Origin: Pseudobutyrivibrio ruminis
GTDB taxonomy: Bacteria > Bacillota > Clostridia > Lachnospirales > Lachnospiraceae
Length of the DNA: 64,000 nt
Direction of reading: 5' to 3'
Assembly: GCA_015057315.1 (NCBI GenBank)
Contig: SVER01000005.1
Location: forward strand, 1-64,000
This document shows positions 27,831 through 57,236 of the stretch, in pieces (the first letter of the stretch is position 1; each line of letters starts with the position of its first letter). The notes below the pieces were generated by a model. The model worked only from the letters and a program-made list of their open reading frames with translations, did no database searches and had not been told where the DNA came from. The translations under genes were made by a program, and so were the position numbers.

Positions 27831-28970
27831 TTATAATCCGAAAATCTCTTCAATCTTGTGCTCGTCAATGTCAGCACCGATAACTACAAGACGTCCTGTG
27901 TAATCAGGCTCACCTGTTCTAAGCTCGTACTCACCGTCAACGAAGTCGAAGTAAATCCATCCGCCATTAACGTCCTCAACCATACCCTTTGAACGGATGA
28001 TTGTACCGTAGTCATTTGTGTTAGCAAATGCCTTCATAGCATTTTCGATAGTAGACTTCTCGAACTTGTGAGGTGTCTCCTTACCCCATGTAGTAAATAC
28101 ATCATCTGCATGATGGTGATGATGATGCTCATGGTCGTGATCATGACAACCGCATGTACAATTCTCGTCATGTTCATGATGATGTTCATGGTCATGCTCC
28201 TCGTGATCATGGTCATGATGATGCTCGTGCTCATGCTCCTCGTGATCGTGGTCATGATGATGCTCGTGCTCATGCTCCTCGTGGTCATGGTCATGATGAT
28301 GCTCGTGCTCATGCTCTTCCTCTTCATGCTCATGAGCCTCCTCTGCAAGATGCTTCATCTCAGATGCAAGATTATCCTGTCCCTCCATAACTGAGAGAAG
28401 CTTTTCACCTGAGATTTCATCCCAAGGTGTTGTAATAATAGCAGCCTTTGGATTAAGCTTCTGAATCTGCTTAACGCAGAACTCAAGCTGATCCTCTGTA
28501 GCTGTCTGTGAACGTGATAATACTACTGTTGTAGCAAACTCAATCTGATTGTTAAAGAACTCGCCAAAAGCCTTCATCTGCTTAGAAGCCTTAAGAGCAT
28601 TAACAACTGTAACAAGACCAGTAAGCTTAACATCTGCTGATTCCTCAAGCTTGATAACTGATGTCATAACATCTGAAAGCTTACCAACACCTGATGGCTC
28701 AATAAGGATTCTGTCTGGGCTGAACTTCTCAAGAACTTCGTGAAGATTCTTGTCGAAATCTCCAACAAGTGAACAGCAAATGCAGCCTGAGTTCATTTCT
28801 GAAATAGTGATACCAGCATCCTTAAGGAAACCGCCATCGATACCTACCTCACCAAATTCGTTTTCAATAAGAACTACCTTCTCACCTTTGTATGCTTCCT
28901 CAAGCATCTTCTTAATGTAAGTAGTCTTACCTGCACCTAAAAAACCTGAAATTATATCAATCTTTGTCAT
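27831..28970 (-). CDS. COG0523 (CobW-family) GTPase with long His-rich metal-binding insert
   Basis: A 379-residue G3E-family GTPase: Walker A GFLGAGKTT (9-17), the metal-binding CxCC motif (CICC, 63-66), a Walker B-like IEPSGVGK, and an SRSQ base-recognition position. Residues 213-287 are almost only His, Asp and Glu with a CTCGC group; the DNA there carries a 39-base tandem repeat. The CobW C-terminal domain follows. Such proteins are metal insertases or chaperones (zinc, cobalt); the His-rich part suggests storage or sensing. The start follows an AAGGAAGG ribosome site. Confidence 0.88.
   Translation of the reverse strand: MTKIDIISGFLGAGKTTYIKKMLEEAYKGEKVVLIENEFGEVGIDGGFLKDAGITISEMNSGCICCSLVGDFDKNLHEVLEKFSPDRILIEPSGVGKLSDVMTSVIKLEESADVKLTGLVTVVNALKASKQMKAFGEFFNNQIEFATTVVLSRSQTATEDQLEFCVKQIQKLNPKAAIITTPWDEISGEKLLSVMEGQDNLASEMKHLAEEAHEHEEEEHEHEHHHDHDHEEHEHEHHHDHDHEEHEHEHHHDHDHEEHDHEHHHEHDENCTCGCHDHDHEHHHHHHADDVFTTWGKETPHKFEKSTIENAMKAFANTNDYGTIIRSKGMVEDVNGGWIYFDFVDGEYELRTGEPDYTGRLVVIGADIDEHKIEEIFGL
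28185..28316 (-). repeat. In-gene 39-base tandem repeat encoding His/Asp/Glu blocks
   Basis: About three copies of a 13-codon unit (protein pattern HEHEHHHDHDHEE) in direct tandem, nearly identical at the base level, followed by a degenerate fourth. Because the codons are cat/gat/gag-rich the opposite strand is also open in all frames, which is an artefact of composition. Copy number is likely to vary between strains. Confidence 0.85.
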
Positions 28971-36205: not shown

Positions 36206-37126
36206 ATGAATTACATTAGTTTATCTGATTATCTAAAAAATAAATATGGAACCAAGGTATACAAGTTATCCCTTTCAACAGGCTGCACATGCCCTAACAG
36301 GGATGGAACTATTTCTTATGGTGGCTGCATATTCTGCTCTGAGGGTGGCTCTGGGGATTTTGCTGCTACAGGCATGGATTTAGATGAACAGATTGCCTAT
36401 GCCCGTGAAAAAGTCGATGCAAAAATACCAGCTAAGATTCCTGCAGATCAGCGAAAGTACATAGCATATTTTCAGTCGTTTACCAATACATATGGAGATG
36501 AAAAATATCTTATGGAGCTTTTTAAGCGAGTTCTTGATTATCCATTTATCCTAGGGCTTTCCATTGGAACCAGGCCTGACTGCCTGTCAGATGAAATGAT
36601 TTCGTTTTTAAGTCAGCTTAACAAAGAAAAAGAAGTTTGGGTTGAACTAGGTCTTCAAACTATTCATGAAAATACAGCAAGACTTATTAATAGAGGTTAT
36701 GATTTGCCTGTATTTGAAGATGCCTATAAAAGACTTACTGATGCCGGGCTAAAGGTTGTAGTCCATGTAATACTAGGCCTTCCTGGGGAATCGGATGACG
36801 ATATTATTGAAACAGTAAAATATTTAGCAGCCCTTACCCCTACCCTGTTTGGAATAAAGCTGCAGTTACTACATATACTTAAAGGCACTAAGCTTGCCGC
36901 TATGTATGAAAAGGAGCCATTTCGTATATACGAATTAGATGAATACTGTGAAATTGTCGGCCGCTGCCTAATGGCTCTTCCTAAAGAAACTGTAATCCAC
37001 AGGCTCACTGGCGACGGACCAAAAAAGCTCCTCATTGCCCCTCTTTGGAGTGGCAACAAGAAGCTTGTAATGAACACAATGCGAAGCTATATTGCGAAGC
37101 TGACGGATGAGGGTCTAAACAGCTAA
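36206..37126 (+). CDS. yhcC: Radical SAM protein, YhcC/TIGR01212 family
   Basis: A 306-residue radical SAM protein. The cluster cysteines are in the N-terminal CTCPNRDG and GGCIFC segments, in the spacing of this family; QSFTNTY, GTRPDCL, GLQT and GLPGES follow as usual. Its biochemical role is not settled. The start at 36206 fits family N-termini (YLKNKYGTKVYKLS) but has no ribosome site; see the promoter entry. The last codons (AKLTDEG) come from a 20-base stretch almost identical to one end of repeat R. Its end overlaps the convergent oxidoreductase gene by 12 bases. Confidence 0.88.
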   Translation: MNYISLSDYLKNKYGTKVYKLSLSTGCTCPNRDGTISYGGCIFCSEGGSGDFAATGMDLDEQIAYAREKVDAKIPAKIPADQRKYIAYFQSFTNTYGDEKYLMELFKRVLDYPFILGLSIGTRPDCLSDEMISFLSQLNKEKEVWVELGLQTIHENTARLINRGYDLPVFEDAYKRLTDAGLKVVVHVILGLPGESDDDIIETVKYLAALTPTLFGIKLQLLHILKGTKLAAMYEKEPFRIYELDEYCEIVGRCLMALPKETVIHRLTGDGPKKLLIAPLWSGNKKLVMNTMRSYIAKLTDEGLNS

Positions 37127-47622: not shown

Positions 47623-48620
47623 TTTATGCTCCTTAAATCTCTAGTGGCGTATGCCTTTGTCATACCATCACGTGCCTGCTTTTTAGCTATTAGCTTAGCC
47701 CCTACACACACTGCTGCTCTTTCACTTACATTTCCTACGCCTACATTTTCCTTCACAAACTCTGATTCACTAAAATCCCCTGAAACGGCTTCTAACTCCT
47801 CAGCCAAAAAGGTTATAAATTTGCAATGAAGATATGCCGCAAGCTTAAGTAAGCCTATCTCATTTGCCTTTTTATCTATTGAACAAATTCCATATAGATT
47901 ATCCTTAAGTTCTTCTAAGGTATAATCCTCTAGGATAAAAGAAAGCAATTCTTCAAAGCTTTTTCCTCTTTTACAGCCCATACCAATTACTAAAGTCTTG
48001 GGCGTTAATATAAGGGTGCCATCGTCTTTCTTTTTATCATTCGTAAATACGAAGTCTATTTTTTCGCCACTTGCCTGATTAATATTTTTAGGCTCTTTAT
48101 CTTGGAATTTCAAATCTTCAATTTCATTTTTGTAATAAACTATCTGGCCTTCTAAAAGCTTCATGGATACATTTTTAATCTTTGATTTATCAAGAATTCT
48201 AAAGCCATTTCTTGCCGCAAAAGAATCTATGGTATATACATCCTCCACATCTGTTGCAGTAGTTATCACAGGATTTGCATTAAGTACTTTTGCAAAATCT
48301 CTCGCCAAATCGTTACCCATTCCATAGTGTCCAGACAAAACAGGAATAACATTTAATCCCTTTTCATCAATAACAATCACTGGAATATCTGAAAGCTTGT
48401 TATCTATAAAAGGCGCAATAGTCCTTACAGCAATCCCCACAGCTCCAATAAAAATAAGCGGAATATGCCCCTCAAAGCTATCCCTTGCAAACTCCTTTAA
48501 AGATATATTGTCATCCTTCACTTCAAAGGTAATATTTTCAAATGCCTGTACAAGCTTTGCGCCAACGCTCTTTCCTTCCTCAGTAAAATATGTAATTCTA
48601 ATCAAATAATTTTCAATCAT
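47610..48620 (-). CDS. cbiG: Cobalt-precorrin-5A hydrolase (CbiG)
   Basis: A 336-residue protein opening the delta-lactone and releasing acetaldehyde during ring contraction. Segments of the family: FIGAVGIAVRTIAPF, VIDEKGLNVIPVLSGH-GMGNDLA, and a C-terminal GMGCKRGKSFEEL and VGVGNVSERAA. Only the anaerobic pathway uses CbiG, which sets the route for this organism. The GGAG ribosome site sits next to the end of repeat R1. Confidence 0.93.
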   Translation of the reverse strand: MIENYLIRITYFTEEGKSVGAKLVQAFENITFEVKDDNISLKEFARDSFEGHIPLIFIGAVGIAVRTIAPFIDNKLSDIPVIVIDEKGLNVIPVLSGHYGMGNDLARDFAKVLNANPVITTATDVEDVYTIDSFAARNGFRILDKSKIKNVSMKLLEGQIVYYKNEIEDLKFQDKEPKNINQASGEKIDFVFTNDKKKDDGTLILTPKTLVIGMGCKRGKSFEELLSFILEDYTLEELKDNLYGICSIDKKANEIGLLKLAAYLHCKFITFLAEELEAVSGDFSESEFVKENVGVGNVSERAAVCVGAKLIAKKQARDGMTKAYATRDLRSIKWQE

Positions 48621-48630
48621 ACAAACTCCA

Positions 48631-48679
48631 AAGCCTTCCCCCTCTGGGGGAAGGTGTCAGCGCAGCTGACGGATGAGGG
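48631..48679 (-). repeat. Repeat R1 (two-hairpin palindromic repeat)
   Basis: Two hairpins: GTCAGC/GCTGAC and ACCTTCCCCC/GGGGGAAGG. Its CTCATC end begins 7 bases after the cbiF stop, and its other end lies 11 bases before the cbiG start, filling nearly the whole gap between these genes. Confidence 0.85.
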
Positions 48680-48685
48680 CAACCA

Positions 48686-49564
48686 TCATCTACTCTTCCT
48701 AAACTCCGTCTCAAATTCAGCATCATACAACTTAGACAACGAATACCCCGACTTTGAAATCACATCTCCAACCAACACAACAGCCAGGTTACTAATCCCA
48801 TGTTCTTCAGCGGTCTTTGCAAGTGATTCCACAGTACAAATATACTTCTGTTCATCTGGCCAGCTAGCCTTATAAACTATAGCTGCTGGTGTATCCTTAG
48901 AATATCCACCATTTATAAGTGCTCTTGATAACTTATCCATCATGCCACTACTAAGATAAATTGCCATAGATGCATTATGTGCAGCCAACTTTTCAATAGA
49001 TTCCCTTTCCGGTACTGCAGTGCGCCCAGCCATTCTTGTAATAATAAGTGTCTGGCTAACATCAGGAAGAGTATACTCCAGATTAAGGCTTGCCGCTGCC
49101 CCAAAGCATGCACTCACCCCTGGACAGCTTTCATACTCAATACCATTAGCTTCCAATATCTGCATTTGCTCTAACACTGCACCATATATACTAGGCTCAC
49201 CTGTATGCAATCTTACAACCATTTTGCCCTGCCTTGCAGAAGCAATTAGCACAATCATTACCTCCTCAAGAGTCATGGTAGCACTATTATGAATCTCGCA
49301 ATTTCTCTTCGCATAATTCAAAAGCTCTGGATTCACTAAAGACCCTGTGTATACAATCACATCAGCCGCCTTTAAAAGATTCATTCCCCTAACTGTAATC
49401 AAATCCGCCGCCCCACAGCCGGCTCCAACAAAATAAACCAAAGGCTTCTCCCTTTGGGGCGAAAGAGGTCCAGTGGACCTCTGCCTTGAGCCGACCGGAG
49501 CGGAAGCGGAGAAGAAGCTGTCAGCGCAGCTGACTGATGAGGGTGTATGTAAATTATTATTCAT
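48686..49564 (-). CDS. cbiF: Precorrin-4 C11-methyltransferase (CbiF) with repeat-derived N-terminal extension
   Basis: The conserved enzyme covers residues 43-292: VYFVGAGCGAADLITVRG, YTGSLVNPELL, LHTGEPSIYGA, PGVSACFGAAASL and the MAGRTAVPE segment. The first about 41 residues are encoded by long repeat R2 and are not family-like. The ATG at 49564 has a modest GGAT site. An alternative is TTG at 49441, which has AGGGAG six bases upstream, formed by the end of R2, and gives 251 residues, the normal family length. Either way R2 has replaced the native start region. Follows a DUF559 gene by 2 bases. Confidence 0.88.
   Translation of the reverse strand: MNNNLHTPSSVSCADSFFSASAPVGSRQRSTGPLSPQREKPLVYFVGAGCGAADLITVRGMNLLKAADVIVYTGSLVNPELLNYAKRNCEIHNSATMTLEEVMIVLIASARQGKMVVRLHTGEPSIYGAVLEQMQILEANGIEYESCPGVSACFGAAASLNLEYTLPDVSQTLIITRMAGRTAVPERESIEKLAAHNASMAIYLSSGMMDKLSRALINGGYSKDTPAAIVYKASWPDEQKYICTVESLAKTAEEHGISNLAVVLVGDVISKSGYSLSKLYDAEFETEFRKSR
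49440..49547 (-). repeat. Repeat R2 (long, three-hairpin variant) inside the cbiF reading frame
   Basis: Ends match the short copies (CTCATCAGTCAGC hairpin; GCTTCT/GGAGAAGC stem), but the second stem holds about 60 extra bases with a perfect hairpin AGAGGTCCA/TGGACCTCT, one-base loop. It is open in the cbiF frame. R2 and R3 form an inverted pair around a DUF559 gene. Confidence 0.85.
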
Positions 49565-49566
49565 AA

Positions 49567-49920
49567 TTAAATCCTCTCTTTAATCTTGGCATCTATATCT
49601 TCACAAACTGCCATAAAATTATTGTTTATATCATAATTAGAATATCTTAAAATCTTTATTCCCAAATCAGCTAAATATTTATCTCTAACTAAATCAGCTT
49701 CATGTCCTTCTTTTTCATAATGCTGACTTCCATCTAGTTCTATTACTATTTTGGCCTTAGCGCAATAAAAATCTACTATATATTTTTCAAAGACTTTTTG
49801 TCTTTTAATTGTAACAGGATAGTCTTTTAAATAATCGTACCAAAGGTGTTTTTCTTCTTTGGTCATGTCATTTCTTAGATTTCTTGAATACTGTTTTAAT
49901 ATAGGGTTTAGTTTTGACAT
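49567..49920 (-). CDS. DUF559 family endonuclease-like protein (first)
   Basis: A 117-residue protein of the DUF559 family, related in fold to very-short-patch-repair (VSR) endonucleases. Conserved parts: RNDMTKEEKHLWYDYL, KYIVDFYC, IVIELDGSQHYE, VRDKYL and GIKILRYSNYDI. Asp (VDFYC) and Glu (ELDG) are the likely metal-binding residues. It is the only non-cobalamin type besides its relative at 51147, both being lodged between cobalamin genes and bracketed by inverted R repeats (here R3 and R2). GAGGAG lies upstream of the ATG. About half to 60% identical to the second copy by eye. Function unknown; a role in repeat movement is an inference. Confidence 0.82.
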   Translation of the reverse strand: MSKLNPILKQYSRNLRNDMTKEEKHLWYDYLKDYPVTIKRQKVFEKYIVDFYCAKAKIVIELDGSQHYEKEGHEADLVRDKYLADLGIKILRYSNYDINNNFMAVCEDIDAKIKERI

Positions 49921-49966
49921 AGATTTATTTTCTCCTCGAAAACAATTTGAAAGCCTTATTTACTCC

Positions 49967-50020
49967 CCCTCATCAGTCACCTACGGTGACAGCTTCCCCC
50001 CTAAAGAGGGGGAAGCCTTT
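49967..50020 (+). repeat. Repeat R3 at the 3' end of cbiD
   Basis: Two hairpins, GTCACC/GGTGAC (3-base loop) and GCTTCCCCC/GGGGGAAGC. The cbiD stop codon (49973-49975) lies within it, and the last 15 or so CbiD residues (KGFPLFRGEAVTVGD) are read from it. R3 lies inverted to R2, with the CTCATC ends facing the DUF559 gene. Confidence 0.87.
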
Positions 50021-51154
50021 AGACTGTGCTAAAAATCCAAATTCATTGGAATACAGTAAACACTCTATTTTTATTTTACCTTGGGCTCTAAAATCCAGGT
50101 AAAATAAAATTCTTTCTAAGACAATATCCATAGTAGGTCTAAGCAAGCCTGCATCTTCTATATAATGAAGAGCTTCTTCAGTATTGAGACAAGCTAAGAT
50201 CTTTCTGGCAAGTTCAGCATCTGCCCCTGCTTTGATGGCGCAGGCTGAAAGGATTTCCATTCTGGCATCGGCCTCGTGTGAATGGGTATTCATGATGCCG
50301 CCAGCTACCTTAATAAGCTTTCCGATGTGTCCTGTGATGACAAGAGTTTCAAAGCCCATCTCACAAACCATGTCGACAGTCTCGCCTATGAAGTTGGAAC
50401 ACTTTACACTTTTATCTAAATCATAGTCATAATTATCCTTCATAAATTTCAGGCCGTAGTTGCCTAGGGTTACGAAGGCTGTTTTAAATCCTAATGCTTT
50501 CTTCTGGGAAAGCTCAACTCTTATTGTATCCACCAATGCTTTTGCACTCATTGGCTCAACGATACCTGTTGTTCCCAGTATTGAAATGCCTCCTACAATT
50601 CCAAGACGAGGATTGAAGGTGTGACTGGCAAGCTCTTTTCCTTCAGGAACAGATATGATTACACTAAGCTTTCCACAAAAATCAAAAAGCCTGCACACCT
50701 GTAGCACTTCCTTTTCAATCATTTCTCTTGGCACATGATTGATTGCAGCATTTCCCACAGGCTGATCCAGCCCTGGCAATGTTACCCTGCCTACACCAAA
50801 GCCTCCATCTATTACAATTTCAGCCTCACCAGTATCTGCAACAGATTCAATTGTAACTGTAGCCACCACGTGGCTTCCTGTAGTAACATCAGGATCATCA
50901 CCACCATCCTTGATAACAGCGCAGCTTACCTGTGACTCTTTCCGTTTAATATCTACAATATCCGCATTAAACATAATCCCTGCAGGAGTTTCTATTCCAA
51001 TATTCAGTTTTTCCTTCCCTGACAAAAGCATGTAGGTCGCCGCCTTCGCAGCCGCCGCCGAGCAACTACCTGTAGTAAAACCTTTTTTAAAGGCTTCCCC
51101 TTGAGGAGAAGCTGTCACCGAAGGTGACTGATGAGGTGTCATATTTTTATTCAT
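49973..51154 (-). CDS. cbiD: Cobalt-precorrin-5B C1-methyltransferase (CbiD) with repeat-encoded ends
   Basis: A 393-residue enzyme of the anaerobic pathway. The family starts at about residue 23: KKGFTTGSCSAAAAKAA; then DGGDDPDVTTG, GFGVGRVTLPGLDQPVGNAAINHVPR, LGIVGGISILGTTGIVEPMS and GHIGKLIKVAGGIMNTHSHEAD. Residues 5-22 come from repeat R4 and about the last 15 from R3. No start codon lies between R4 and the conserved part, so the repeat-encoded N-terminus must be translated. The ATG at 51154 has GGAG inside the upstream DUF559 gene, which it overlaps by 8 bases. Confidence 0.93.
   Translation of the reverse strand: MNKNMTPHQSPSVTASPQGEAFKKGFTTGSCSAAAAKAATYMLLSGKEKLNIGIETPAGIMFNADIVDIKRKESQVSCAVIKDGGDDPDVTTGSHVVATVTIESVADTGEAEIVIDGGFGVGRVTLPGLDQPVGNAAINHVPREMIEKEVLQVCRLFDFCGKLSVIISVPEGKELASHTFNPRLGIVGGISILGTTGIVEPMSAKALVDTIRVELSQKKALGFKTAFVTLGNYGLKFMKDNYDYDLDKSVKCSNFIGETVDMVCEMGFETLVITGHIGKLIKVAGGIMNTHSHEADARMEILSACAIKAGADAELARKILACLNTEEALHYIEDAGLLRPTMDIVLERILFYLDFRAQGKIKIECLLYSNEFGFLAQSKGFPLFRGEAVTVGD
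51089..51138 (-). repeat. Repeat R4 at the 5' end of cbiD
   Basis: Two hairpins, GTCACC/GGTGAC and GCTTCTCC/GGGGAAGC. In frame with cbiD, encoding the residues SPSVTASPQGEAF. Inverted relative to R5; the pair R4/R5 encloses the second DUF559 gene. Confidence 0.87.
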
Positions 51155-51506
51155 TAGAACACTCCATATTTTTTAGAATATCCTCACATACAGCTATAAA
51201 ATTTTTGTTTATATCATAATTTGAATATCTTAATACCTTTATACCTATACTATTTAGATATTCATCTCTTCTAGTATCACTATTAATTCCATCAGCTTCA
51301 TAGTGCTGACTACCATCAAGTTCTATTACTATTTTTTTACTTGCACAGTAAAAATCTACAATATAGTTCCCTATGATTTGTTGTCGCTTTATTGTGTACT
51401 TTAATCCCTTCAAGAAATCAAACCACAAATGTCTTTCTTCTTTTGTCATGTTCTTTCTCAGTTTTTGAGAATTCTTCTTTAATTTTTGATTATAAGTTTC
51501 ATTCAT
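51147..51506 (-). CDS. DUF559 family endonuclease-like protein (second)
   Basis: A 119-residue DUF559/VSR-like protein, clearly related to the one at 49567 (shared MTKEE-HLW, YIVDFYC, KIVIELDGSQHYE, LRYSNYDIN-NF-AVCEDI). The start is taken as the ATG at 51506: GAGGTG, six bases upstream, is the terminal part of repeat R5. A longer frame begins 4 codons earlier at an ATG that is itself part of R5. Its end overlaps cbiD by 8 bases, so cbiD translation is coupled to it. Bracketed by inverted R5 and R4. Confidence 0.82.
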   Translation of the reverse strand: MNETYNQKLKKNSQKLRKNMTKEERHLWFDFLKGLKYTIKRQQIIGNYIVDFYCASKKIVIELDGSQHYEADGINSDTRRDEYLNSIGIKVLRYSNYDINKNFIAVCEDILKNMECSNE

Positions 51507-51512
51507 AGAACA

Positions 51513-51558
51513 CCTCATCAGTCAGCTTCGCTGACAGCTTCCCCTCAAGGGGAAGCCT
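51513..51558 (+). repeat. Repeat R5, providing the ribosome site of the second DUF559 gene
   Basis: Two hairpins, GTCAGC/GCTGAC and GCTTCCCC/GGGGAAGC. Read leftward it ends GATGAGGTG, six bases before the DUF559 ATG. It lies 40 bases after the cbiC stop. Confidence 0.87.
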
Positions 51559-51598
51559 TAATCAAAGTTTTCCAATGCCAATTGGAAAACCACATTTT

Positions 51599-52225
51599 CT
51601 ATAGGCTGTAAAGTATCGCATTTACGATAGCTGCTGCGATGTTGCTGCCGCCTTTGCGGCCTTTGTTGATGATGTGTGGAACTGAGGAGTTAAGGAAAAG
51701 TTCCTTGGCTGCCTCTACGTTTACGAATCCAACTGGTACGCCAATGACAAACTCTGGTGTGAATTTGCCTTGCTCCATCATTTCATAAAGTGAAATAAGG
51801 GCTGTTGGTGCGTTGCCTATGGCAAAGATTACTGGCATAGGCAGAGCTGCTGCTCGCTCCATGGATACAGTAGCTCTTGTAACCTGGCGATCCTTTGCTT
51901 CCTTGGCTACGTCTTCATCTGCCATAAAGCAGTGTACCTGGCCTCCGAAGGATGCCAATTTTTTTTTGTTGATGCCGGCTAATGCCATGTTAGTGTCAGT
52001 AACTATGTGAGCACCATTTTTTATTAATTCCTTGGCAAGGTTAATTGCACCTTGCGAATAACACATTGTCTTAGCATAATCGAAATCAGCGCTGGTGTGG
52101 ATTACACGCTTGGTGATGGGAGCTTCTTCCTCGGGGATGGTGATTCCCAGGGAGTCTAGCTCAGCGGTTATGATTTCGAAGCTACGATGTTCTATTTCTG
52201 TTGGTAAGATGTATTCTATTTGCAT
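51599..52225 (-). CDS. cbiC: Cobalt-precorrin-8 methylmutase (CbiC)
   Basis: A 208-residue isomerase moving the C11 methyl to C12. Segments: RVIHTSADFDYA with the catalytic His, GAHIVTDTNMALAGI, NAPTALISLYEM, PEFVIGVPVGFVNVEAAKE and a terminal GRKGGSNIAAAIVNAI. I prefer the ATG at 52225, because GAGGG, seven bases upstream, is the end of repeat R6; an ATG two codons earlier is too close to it. The cobyric acid synthase gene ends 3 bases upstream. Confidence 0.94.
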   Translation of the reverse strand: MQIEYILPTEIEHRSFEIITAELDSLGITIPEEEAPITKRVIHTSADFDYAKTMCYSQGAINLAKELIKNGAHIVTDTNMALAGINKKKLASFGGQVHCFMADEDVAKEAKDRQVTRATVSMERAAALPMPVIFAIGNAPTALISLYEMMEQGKFTPEFVIGVPVGFVNVEAAKELFLNSSVPHIINKGRKGGSNIAAAIVNAILYSL

Positions 52226-52227
52226 GT

Positions 52228-53736
52228 TCATACCCTCATCCGCCCCTTCGGGGCACCTTCCCCCAGCGGGGGAAGGCTCATTATTTCGTATATATAGTTT
52301 ATATCTAGGTTTGCACGGACTGCGTCAGCCAGTTTATCGTATTCTTTTTCTCTGATTGCCTGATAGTCCATTGAATCTTCTGAAAGACTAACGCCTTTTT
52401 TGTTAGCCAGTGACTTGGCAAGCTTAAGTGCAATGTCTCCATTATCAAAGCAGCCGTGTACATAGGTGCCAAATATATTACCGTTTTGATAGCTGCTCAC
52501 AAATTCTTCGTTAATTTTTGAGCGTCCGTTGTGTATCTCATAGCCTTCAAAATATTCTCCTGAAAGACTTTCGAAAATTCCGTCCATTTTTCTAAAATGG
52601 CCTTTTGTCTGGCTTCTGTATTTGCCATCAACAATAACTGTATCCATAGGAATAAGTCCAAGTCCATTAATTCTGCCTACTCCTGCACCCTCAACTAAAT
52701 CCGGATCACTGATAGTGTTTCCCATAATCTGAAAGCCTCCGCAGATTCCTACTACAGGTCCATGGTTTGCAAATTTTTTGATGGCGGTAGACATGCCAGA
52801 TTCAATCAGCCATACCATATCTGAAATGGTATTTTTGCTACCAGGGATAATCACCATATCAGCCCCATCCAGCTCAGATGGTTTTGAGACAAAATTAACC
52901 TTTACGCCATCAATATTTTCAAATGGTGCCACATCAGTAAAGTTTGAAATCTTAGGTAAACGAATAACTGCAATTTCAATTACTGCATCCCCTTTAACAT
53001 CTCCCTTATTATCAAGCCTTTCACTAAGGCTATCCTCATCATCTATCATAAGCCTTGTGTAAGGAATGGTTCCAACTACAGGCACTCCACCTCGTTCCTC
53101 TAGCATATCTATTCCAGAATCAAGTAGTGTTTTATCCCCTCTAAATTTGTTAATAATTAATCCTTTTACTCTATCTCTTTCATCTTCTTCTAAAAGCTCC
53201 AATGTTCCAAGCAACTGAGCAAACACACCGCCCCTGTCAATATCTCCCACAAGAAGTACTGGTGCATCCACAAGCTTGGCCATTCCCATGTTTACAATAT
53301 CATCTGCCTTTAGATTAATCTCCGCAGGGCTTCCTGCTCCCTCAATTACTATTACATCTGCCCACTGAGCAAGCTTATTGTATGCAGCCTTAATATCACC
53401 TATTAAGTTTTTCTTGTAGGCAAAATATTCTCTAGCCGTCATGTTGCCTAGCACTTCCCCATTTACAATCACCTGGGATCCTACATCATTGGTAGGCTTT
53501 AGTAATATAGGGTTCATGTAAACAGAAGGCTTTACTCCTGCGCACTCTGCTTGCATTACCTGGGCTCGGCCCATTTCAAGTCCTTCTTCTGTTACAAAGG
53601 AATTGAGCGCCATGTTCTGCGATTTGAAGGGGGCCACCTTTAGGCCATCTTGTTTGAATATTCTGCATAGGGCACCAACTAGGAGGCTTTTGCCTACGTT
53701 TGACATGGTGCCTTGAATCATGATTACTTTTGACAT
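52228..53736 (-). CDS. cbiP: Cobyric acid synthase (CbiP/CobQ) with repeat-encoded C-terminus
   Basis: A 502-residue enzyme making the last four side-chain amidations. N-terminal ATPase domain: [53 protein letters not shown]-terminal glutaminase domain: [22 protein letters not shown] (nucleophile Cys), YEIHNGRS and YVHGCFDN. The last 15 residues ([15 protein letters not shown]) are read from repeat R6. The ATG has GAGGG nine bases upstream, formed by repeat R7. Confidence 0.94.
52233..52277 (+). repeat. Repeat R6, at the cbiP 3' end and cbiC ribosome site
   Basis: Two hairpins: GCCCC-TTCG-GGGC (tetraloop type) and ACCTTCCCCC/GGGGGAAGG. It encodes the CbiP C-terminus and, at its GATGAGGG end, the cbiC Shine-Dalgarno site. 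Confidence 0.87.
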
Positions 53737-53745
53737 ATATTCATA

Positions 53746-53793
53746 CCCTCATCCGCCCCTTCGGGGCACCTTCCCCCTACTTAGGGGGAAGGC
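53746..53793 (+). repeat. Repeat R7, upstream of cbiP
   Basis: Two hairpins: GCCCC-TTCG-GGGC and ACCTTCCCCC/GGGGGAAGG. It starts 5 bases after the ABC ATPase stop and its GAGGG end is nine bases before the cbiP ATG, filling nearly the whole gap. Confidence 0.87.
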
Positions 53794-53798
53794 ATAAT

Positions 53799-54590
53799 TT
53801 AGAGAAGCCTTTTTATTGAGGCTGAATAATTCCACAGCCCACTACATATAATCTCACCAGTTCCTGGGGACATTGAATACATTACTTCTAAGTTCTCTCC
53901 AGTGAGGACTTCTTCTGGGGAGCCTGCGACGTACACTTCATCACCTGCTACACCAATCACTTTATCAGCAATGGCAGGAACAAATTCCAGCTCATGGATA
54001 GACATAAGAACTGCAACATTCTTTTCCTTTGCCATTTTCTTAATAACCTTTAGAATATCTAGTTTATACTGCAAATCCAAAAATGAAGTAGGCTCATCCA
54101 AAACCATTATTCCTGTATCCTGGCAAATAGCTCTGGCAAGCATTATACGCTGCTTTTGTCCATCACTGATTTTGGAAAAATCCTTATCTATTATCTTTCT
54201 TGCACCTACTAAATCTATAGCAGAATTCACAGCTTCCTTGTCTTCATCAGACAAAAAACCTAATCTGCCTGTATATGGATATCTTCCTGTGGCAACCACC
54301 TCAAAGCATGTCATAAGCTCAGGATGAATCCGTTCTGTCATTACCATAGAAACAGACTTTGCCACATCCTCTTCACGAAGGTTCGCCTCATTTGCTCCAT
54401 CAATGATAATGCTTCCTCCCAGCTTTTTTAGCTGCCTTACAATAGTCTTAAGCACTGTAGATTTGCCAGCCCCATTAGCACCTATCAGACATACTATCTC
54501 ACCAGGTAAAATATCTATGTTAACATTATTAAGTACAATAGATGTGCCGTAGCCCACCTTTAAATCTTCTAATCTTATTCCCTTATCCAC
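53799..54590 (-). CDS. Corrinoid/siderophore ABC transporter ATP-binding protein (BtuD-like)
   Basis: A 263-residue ATPase of the FecE/BtuD class: Walker A GANGAGKST, signature ISDGQKQRIMLARAI (Asp in place of the second Gly), Walker B IMVLDEPTSFLD and H-loop SIHE. It overlaps the permease gene by 8 bases. The place between the riboswitch and cobalamin genes makes corrinoid the likely substrate; iron-siderophore or haem cannot be excluded by sequence. Confidence 0.88.
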   Translation of the reverse strand: MDKGIRLEDLKVGYGTSIVLNNVNIDILPGEIVCLIGANGAGKSTVLKTIVRQLKKLGGSIIIDGANEANLREEDVAKSVSMVMTERIHPELMTCFEVVATGRYPYTGRLGFLSDEDKEAVNSAIDLVGARKIIDKDFSKISDGQKQRIMLARAICQDTGIMVLDEPTSFLDLQYKLDILKVIKKMAKEKNVAVLMSIHELEFVPAIADKVIGVAGDEVYVAGSPEEVLTGENLEVMYSMSPGTGEIICSGLWNYSASIKRLL

Positions 54591-57136: not shown

Positions 57137-57236
57137 CCCTCATCCGTCACCTGCGGTGACACCTTGTCTCGCCTCCCGGCTCGGTCGTTGCTAAACAGGC
57201 TCCACTGGAGCCTAGCAACCCCTAAGGGGGAAGGCT
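57137..57236 (+). repeat. Repeat R8 (long, three-hairpin variant)
   Basis: Hairpin 1 is GTCACC/GGTGAC. The second stem is interrupted by about 60 bases with GTTGCT/AGCAAC enclosing a perfect AGGCTCCA/TGGAGCCT hairpin, one-base loop. It shares a GGTCG/GGCTC-containing arm and a CCACTGG hairpin core with R2. It fills the gap between the chelatase stop (57237) and the binding-protein start. Confidence 0.85.

Follow-up and report, generated by a model that had tools for sequence, protein, structure and literature searches.

The stretch analysed here, called the window throughout, comprises the first 64,000 nucleotides of contig SVER01000005.1 of Pseudobutyrivibrio ruminis (assembly GCA_015057315.1; 3.42 Mb, 94.5% complete). 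Among its cobalamin genes lie two short genes for DUF559 nucleases, each enclosed by two copies of a hairpin repeat, R, whose heads face the gene. A preliminary description of the window had proposed that R and these nucleases form a mobile system comparable to that of the repetitive extragenic palindromic (REP) elements and the REP-associated tyrosine transposases (RAYTs). The genes and repeats of the two brackets are as follows; the gene names cbiF and cbiD are ones we assume from protein motifs of the open reading frames in the window.

48686 to 49564, minus strand: cbiF-like gene, its N-terminus read through R2, its start codon (49564) within the bracket
49444 to 49543, minus strand: R2, a long variant with an extra hairpin; head at 49543, preceded by C, facing nuclease F
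49567 to 49920, minus strand: DUF559 nuclease F, 117 amino acids, inserted at the cbiD/cbiF junction; PF04480, E 2e-28
49967 to 50016, plus strand: R3; head at 49967, preceded by C, facing nuclease F; encodes the CbiD C-terminus
49973 to 51154, minus strand: cbiD-like gene, its N-terminus encoded via R4 and its C-terminus via R3, its start codon (51154) within the bracket
51090 to 51137, minus strand: R4; head at 51137, preceded by A, facing nuclease D; encodes part of the CbiD N-terminus
51147 to 51518, minus strand: DUF559 nuclease D, 123 amino acids as listed, inserted at the cobH/cbiD junction; PF04480, E 2e-31
51512 to 51558, plus strand: R5; head at 51512, preceded by A, facing nuclease D

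Both DUF559 genes are real, and the inward orientation of R2/R3 and R4/R5 around them, as well as the position of the cbiF and cbiD start codons inside the brackets, was found as previously described. The two nucleases share 60% identity, in agreement with the earlier view that they are diverged relatives and not one recent tandem copy, and they account for all PF04480 matches in the whole assembly. An in-frame ATG at 51506 appears to be a likelier start of nuclease D than the listed one; the 3′ end of this gene overlaps the start of cbiD, and the arms around it are inverted over 67 nt with 87% complementarity.

Searched against Pfam at E 0.001, the window nucleases matched nuclease families only (PF04480 and, below the cut-off, MTES_1575 and DUF2726), and neither the transposase domain PF01797 nor any other recognised transposase domain was found in them. 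By profile match and fold, both genes encode intact Vsr-fold PD-(D/E)XK nucleases. The candidate active-site residues are invariant across 50 sequences; when aligned with those of Vsr and VsrA, a DUF559 protein of Caulobacter, by order and spacing alone, D55-D68-H72 fit exactly, and E28 and D81 do not fit. The ratio of nonsynonymous to synonymous substitution rates (dN/dS), computed for a set of 12 gene pairs, two of which gave no computable value, was 0.06–0.21 in the seven cbiF-site orthologue pairs tested.

PF04480 was present in 13 of 29 genomes of the genus (genomes and loci are designated by G and L numbers where they must be told apart), with one or two genes per positive genome. In 11 of these 13 the gene lies less than 1.5 kb from cbiD; the distance is ∼1.6 kb in G021, and G014 lacks a cbiD match. 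Each of the 14 intact nuclease loci of the genus is situated between inward-facing R copies, 13 according to the strict pattern and one (L011 in G008) according to a looser pattern and inspection by eye. G014 (L014, L016) contains a broken DUF559 gene beside another repeat family, with a CTCCCTCAGTC head. In the window genome, the R pattern with up to three mismatches matched 82 times, and the reversed control pattern not once. Nine neighbouring inward R pairs closer than 2.5 kb were found genome-wide: seven have a spacer of 15–18 bp, and the other two are the DUF559 brackets.

R abundance follows the nuclease across the genus. The 13 DUF559-positive genomes contain 0, 7, 9, 15, 15, 23, 25, 38, 46, 48, 63, 64 and 82 copies; ten of the 16 negative genomes contain none, and the remaining six 1, 2, 4, 6, 17 and 27 (one-sided p 1e-4, or 1.2e-4 when the bracket copies are removed). 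The exceptions to this co-occurrence are G014, G020 and G028 and, outside the genus, G601.

Bracketing is not confined to the genus. A scan of named genomes yielded 80 further loci, the best of at least 580, mostly from metagenome-assembled genomes titled Clostridia, Oscillospiraceae or Lachnospiraceae (two are Anaerovibrio, one Anaerolineaceae), which together with the 14 genus loci make 94, including the near-duplicates L004/L075 and L007/L116. Inward R copies were present on both sides in 57 of the 94, on one side in 26 and on neither in 11; among 1851 control placements, none had them on both sides and 28 on at least one. These control placements led us to reject chance as the cause of the bracketing. 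The association of DUF559 genes with inward R pairs, which the preliminary description had left to be checked in related genomes, is thus strong. When the flanks were compared irrespective of any repeat pattern, 45 of the 76 loci compared had inverted matches that reached or exceeded the 99th percentile of 1110 controls (four of the 80 were left out for short flanks).

R consists of a head (CCTCATC in the window, CCTCATC or CCTCACC in the wider set), followed by hairpin 1 and hairpin 2. A hairpin 1 stem of at least 5 bp was formed in 103 of 134 arms, compared with 358 of 2680 combinations in which the halves were swapped between partners, and the 111 arms with at least 4 bp display 41 distinct stems; it is thus the structure of hairpin 1, not its sequence, that is conserved. 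Hairpin 2 was detected in 125 of 140 arms. The base that follows the head co-varies, across hairpin 1, with the one at the foot of hairpin 2 (C/C in 81, A/G in 45 and other combinations in 14 of the 140 arms), although the linked bases (126 of 140) do not form a Watson–Crick pair. Enzymes of the IS200/IS605 type make guide-target contacts, of which the linked bases are reminiscent; this resemblance can be regarded only as a lead. In the long R variants (49444–49543, 57137–57236), hairpin 2 contains a further hairpin of ∼50 nt that resembles AGGTCCACTGGACCT or GGCTCCACTGGAGCC. An Rfam search of 48400–53900 returned two matches up to E 1, both under the gathering score, and a known RNA family was therefore rejected as an identity for R in that region.

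Two subtypes of R can be distinguished by the base preceding the head, A or C, and they are cognate to the brackets. G005 and G027, which have only the cbiD-site nuclease with A-type brackets, contain 14 A-type and no C-type copies, whereas the eight genomes with C-type brackets only contain 22 A-type and 163 C-type copies. After removal of the bracket copies (two per C-type genome; three in all for G005 and G027), the counts are 11 and 0 versus 22 and 147, with p = 1.6e-9, a value that is too small because copies are shared by descent. G008 has a nuclease that groups with the cbiD-site clade, yet the brackets around it are of the C type, and C-type copies prevail among the R of this genome as well (15 versus 1). 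G020, which has no nuclease, contains 16 A-type and one C-type copy. In the wider set, the base before the head was the same on both arms in 54 of 57 two-armed loci (permuted mean 34.1; none of 20000 permutations as high). Mapped on the nuclease tree, the bracket base requires 8 changes, as opposed to 17.9 after shuffling (none of 500 as low), with near-copies included and host descent uncontrolled; for this tree, five of the 94 rows were excluded for stops, and 14 tree rows carry no A/C label.

Besides the bracket copies, the window holds four solo copies.

48633 to 48679, minus strand: R1, at the junction of cbiF with the next gene; E 3.9e-16
52233 to 52276, plus strand: R6, at the cobQ/cobH junction; encodes the C-terminus of the cobQ product; absent from this site in several relatives
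53746 to 53793, plus strand: R7, upstream of a cobQ-like gene
57137 to 57236, plus strand: R8, a long variant

The gene adjoining cbiF at R1 is presumably cbiG-like, and those around R6 we take to be cobQ and cobH. The window thus contains eight clear copies (R1–R8) and one partial match at 37113–37094; the six copies outside the brackets that had been counted before reduce to four clear ones and this partial one. R contributes start regions, stop codons and reading frames at the junctions, as at the N-termini of CbiF and CbiD and the end of the cobQ product. The reverse complement of the head, GATGAGG, stands just upstream of start codons at 52233–52276, 53746–53793 and 57137–57165; it could act as a ribosome-binding site, which may explain why R is tolerated at operon junctions. 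Elsewhere in the window, at 28110–28362, an array of degenerate short units may be a His-rich coding stretch.

Four sites, three of solo R and one of R-nuclease-R, have both occupied and empty alleles, so that the empty sites that had been called for do exist. At the cobH/cbiD junction, G023, G024 and G026 have a solo R, and G013 and G010 have none. At the cbiD/cbiF junction, R-nuclease-R is present in eight genomes and a decayed R without the gene in G006, and eleven of the readable genomes are empty. The cobQ/cobH junction carries a C-type R in G000, G010, G013, G023 and G024 and an A-type R in G004, and no R in other genomes. At an unrelated locus elsewhere in the genome, R is present in G000, G010 and G023, different R copies are present in G013 and G007, and G004 and G024 are cleanly empty; the occupied allele consists of a solo R plus ∼20 bp and is not a shortened R-gene-R. 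No clear target-site duplication was seen by eye at the occupied/empty pairs, a comparison which a duplication of 2–4 nt could escape.

Repeats of a comparable kind also stand beside DUF559 genes of Pseudomonadota, Deinococcota and Cyanobacteriota, and at one locus of the Chloroflexota. Twenty-three further loci were inspected, 22 from records of a plasmid collection (Pseudomonadota, Deinococcota, Cyanobacteriota; several from the same genus or strain) and one from a phage. In 18 of the 23, the inverted-repeat score of the flanks was higher than at any control placement of that locus, although in two of these, L192 and L206, the matched stretches are not clear hairpin arms; the other five (L184, L185, L189, L198, L204) did not beat their own controls, and by eye they show hairpin pairs on one side only. 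The arms have, by eye, a CCCTCAYC-like or CCCCYACC-like head and GC-rich hairpins. A Sinorhizobium arm recurs at 35 places in its own record, and three relatives, likewise with the gene, have 16 places each; this repeat may be RIME1, a term found in none of the open-licence papers listed in a search for it. A generic repeat pattern matched two of the five records searched and did not fit the Sinorhizobium repeat. Downstream of the DUF559 match in L192 (E. coli KE47) lies a CCTCACCCCAACCCTCTCCC-type sequence, with a long palindrome upstream. In L196, L197 and L200 (Sphingomonas, Deinococcus), DUF559 lies between linked operon genes (sufB/sufC, transhydrogenase subunits, paaD/paaZ).

Across 398 genomes of the phylum, full-length DUF559 (E < 1e-20) was found in six besides the window's own. 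Judged by eye at the best gene of each, hairpin repeats are present on both sides in four, on one side in one and absent from the remaining one (L160). At least ten matches to the Clostridia R pattern occur only in G000, G564 and G601 among the 398. The other five genomes with full-length DUF559 have 0–4, and four of these five show other hairpin repeats at the best gene, by eye. Five more distant PF04480 proteins, taken from many more matches, had no flanking repeats by eye and showed low scores (10–18); the link with repeats thus seems to be particular to short, full-length DUF559 proteins. At the family level, PF04480 was found in 37 of 250 genomes, and apart from the window's own genome the listed matches are partial and weak (best 3.2e-9).

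We consider it probable that R and the nuclease constitute a RAYT-like system, with R as a REP-type repeat of bacteria and the DUF559 protein encoded between its copies as the cognate nuclease. Behind this reading stand bracketing, conserved pairing, cognate subtypes, co-occurrence and presence/absence alleles, all of them observed directly. The proposal of a REP/RAYT-like mobile system is upheld by the bracketing, the R counts, the cognate subtypes and the conserved pairing, but not insofar as it implied multiplication of the bracketed gene: the arrangement is that of a one- or two-copy nuclease together with many dispersed repeats, and not that of a self-multiplying nuclease element. From the sequences, we infer that the nuclease recognises, nicks and spreads R. 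Kept as one or two copies per genome at a few fixed sites between inward R ends, and apparently inherited vertically, it would act in trans, engaging R hairpins where the DNA is single-stranded or forms a cruciform, and nick at or near the conserved head. Host repair would then place a copy containing R elsewhere, for the most part at gene junctions, and leave no clear target duplication; solo copies and head-to-head doublets of R would be the non-autonomous products. We know of no PD-(D/E)XK hydrolase that joins strands by itself.

Several observations weigh against the RAYT-like reading. The genomes of the genus are related and the correlations among them non-independent, so that the p-values serve as guides only. 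R occurs without an intact nuclease in G020 (27 copies), G028 (17) and G601 (19, by another pattern), which could reflect nuclease loss. The nuclease D pair of G000 and G004 has a dN/dS of 0.52, the eleven loci without R by the pattern have been mentioned, and in the pattern-independent test same-orientation flank matches also passed the threshold in 22 of the 76 loci, which is expected of palindromic arms but weakens that single test. The pooled 99th percentile was passed by just 8 of the 23 further loci. Finally, excerpts of a report on Caulobacter place a DUF559 protein in a Vsr-like repair process (PMC12907096).

An ordinary transposon of the insertion sequence (IS) type, with R as its terminal inverted repeat and solo copies as miniature inverted-repeat elements or relics, appears unlikely. 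It would agree with the long inverted arms at nuclease D, with the filled and empty alleles, with the DUF559 genes that, in other taxa, separate linked genes of various operons (sufB/sufC; transhydrogenase subunits), and with a target duplication of 2–4 nt, which is possible at the unrelated locus. However, positive genomes of the genus have one or two nuclease genes as opposed to up to 82 R copies, the target duplication is not clear, the occupied unrelated locus is a solo R with its ∼20 bp, and the domain is that of a nuclease and not of a recognised transposase. A plain IS was rejected as the leading reading on account of the gene copy number, the nuclease domain and the lack of a clear duplication.

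The RAYT-like reading also has to be set against the possibility, which we likewise regard as improbable, that R is a terminator or mRNA-stabilising hairpin kept by the host and a safe landing site, and that DUF559, functionally unrelated to it, inserts between pre-existing R pairs. Head-to-head R doublets with non-conserved spacers of 15–18 bp (L207–L213 in G000; L216 and L218–L220 in G004) lie, by eye, at gene ends, and their outer sides are often followed by T-runs; they resemble REPIN-type doublets that could serve as bidirectional terminators. The doublets and their T-runs would suit a host-kept hairpin, as would the location of the window copies at gene junctions and the similarity of the reverse-complemented head to a ribosome-binding site. 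In contrast, the only two gene-sized inward R pairs below 2.5 kb in the genome are the two DUF559 brackets, none of the 1851 control placements was bracketed, R abundance tracks DUF559, and the arms of one locus agree in subtype.

It is very unlikely that DUF559 is a Vsr-type repair or defence nuclease whose flanking R regulates its own mRNA, with the dispersed copies of unrelated origin. The Vsr fold and the role reported for the Caulobacter protein speak for it, but the correlation of subtype between bracket and dispersed copies, the symmetric inward orientation and the similar repeats across phyla would be left unexplained, and the neighbouring open reading frames are, by eye, cobalamin genes (a partner DNA methyltransferase was not searched for). 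Homing, in which the nuclease would cut R-free alleles of its own site and recombination would copy in R-gene-R as for free-standing homing endonucleases, is highly improbable, as it would leave the dozens of unrelated sites with R unaccounted for, and genomes can differ in the R subtype at a given junction.

The RAYT-like reading is best appreciated beside the systems already described. In REP/RAYT, as set out in excerpts of PMC2817692, a gene for a TnpA-REP protein (related to the HUH tyrosine transposases of IS200/IS605) lies between two inverted palindromic repeats with conserved heads, copies are dispersed with stems kept by complementary changes, repeat abundance correlates with the gene, and repeat types co-vary with it; all of this is matched by R and DUF559. 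The enzyme, however, is a PD-(D/E)XK Vsr-fold nuclease (PF04480), whereas RAYT is a PF01797 transposase, and the R head is CCTCATC or CCTCACC and is followed by two hairpins, whereas the REP head is GT(A/G)G. With a different enzyme domain and without a GTAG head, the DUF559/R system is not classed as RAYT. What sets the DUF559 genes studied here apart from Vsr endonucleases, and possibly from VsrA, is that dispersed repeats flank them. I-Bth0305I (3r3p), a sequence-specific Vsr-like homing endonuclease, shares the catalytic fold and a mobile-element context but is intron-encoded (deposited as "mobile intron protein"), and we know of no hairpin repeat family tied to it; nor are we aware of a function or repeat association for the uncharacterised 3hrl (NGO0050, Neisseria). 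To our knowledge, no enzyme class other than RAYT has been connected with the spread of REPs. No earlier description of a link between DUF559 and repeats was found among the open-licence papers listed in our searches, and one may exist elsewhere. The CGTC superfamily of REPs is, according to excerpts of PMC3733652, not associated with transposase genes.

The position of R at the nuclease genes, its scatter through the same genomes of the genus and its presence or absence between relatives point to a hitherto undescribed means of disseminating short repeats, akin to REP/RAYT but distinct from it. More broadly, the chances seem evenly balanced that full-length DUF559 proteins are the dedicated mobilisers of a pan-bacterial class of REPs with two hairpins. 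This would be a second REP system, separate from RAYT: hairpins would be copied to the junctions between genes by the joint action of host repair and a hydrolytic nuclease of the Vsr fold, and some of the REP families that lack a transposase may be accounted for in this way. Short palindromic repeats shape bacterial genomes, and a link between hairpin repeats and a second enzyme superfamily, extending over several phyla, would provide a missing candidate mobiliser. Such a link would also assign a role to a family that annotation lists as unknown, and would suggest where the hairpins that furnish operon junctions with start regions, stop codons and terminators come from.

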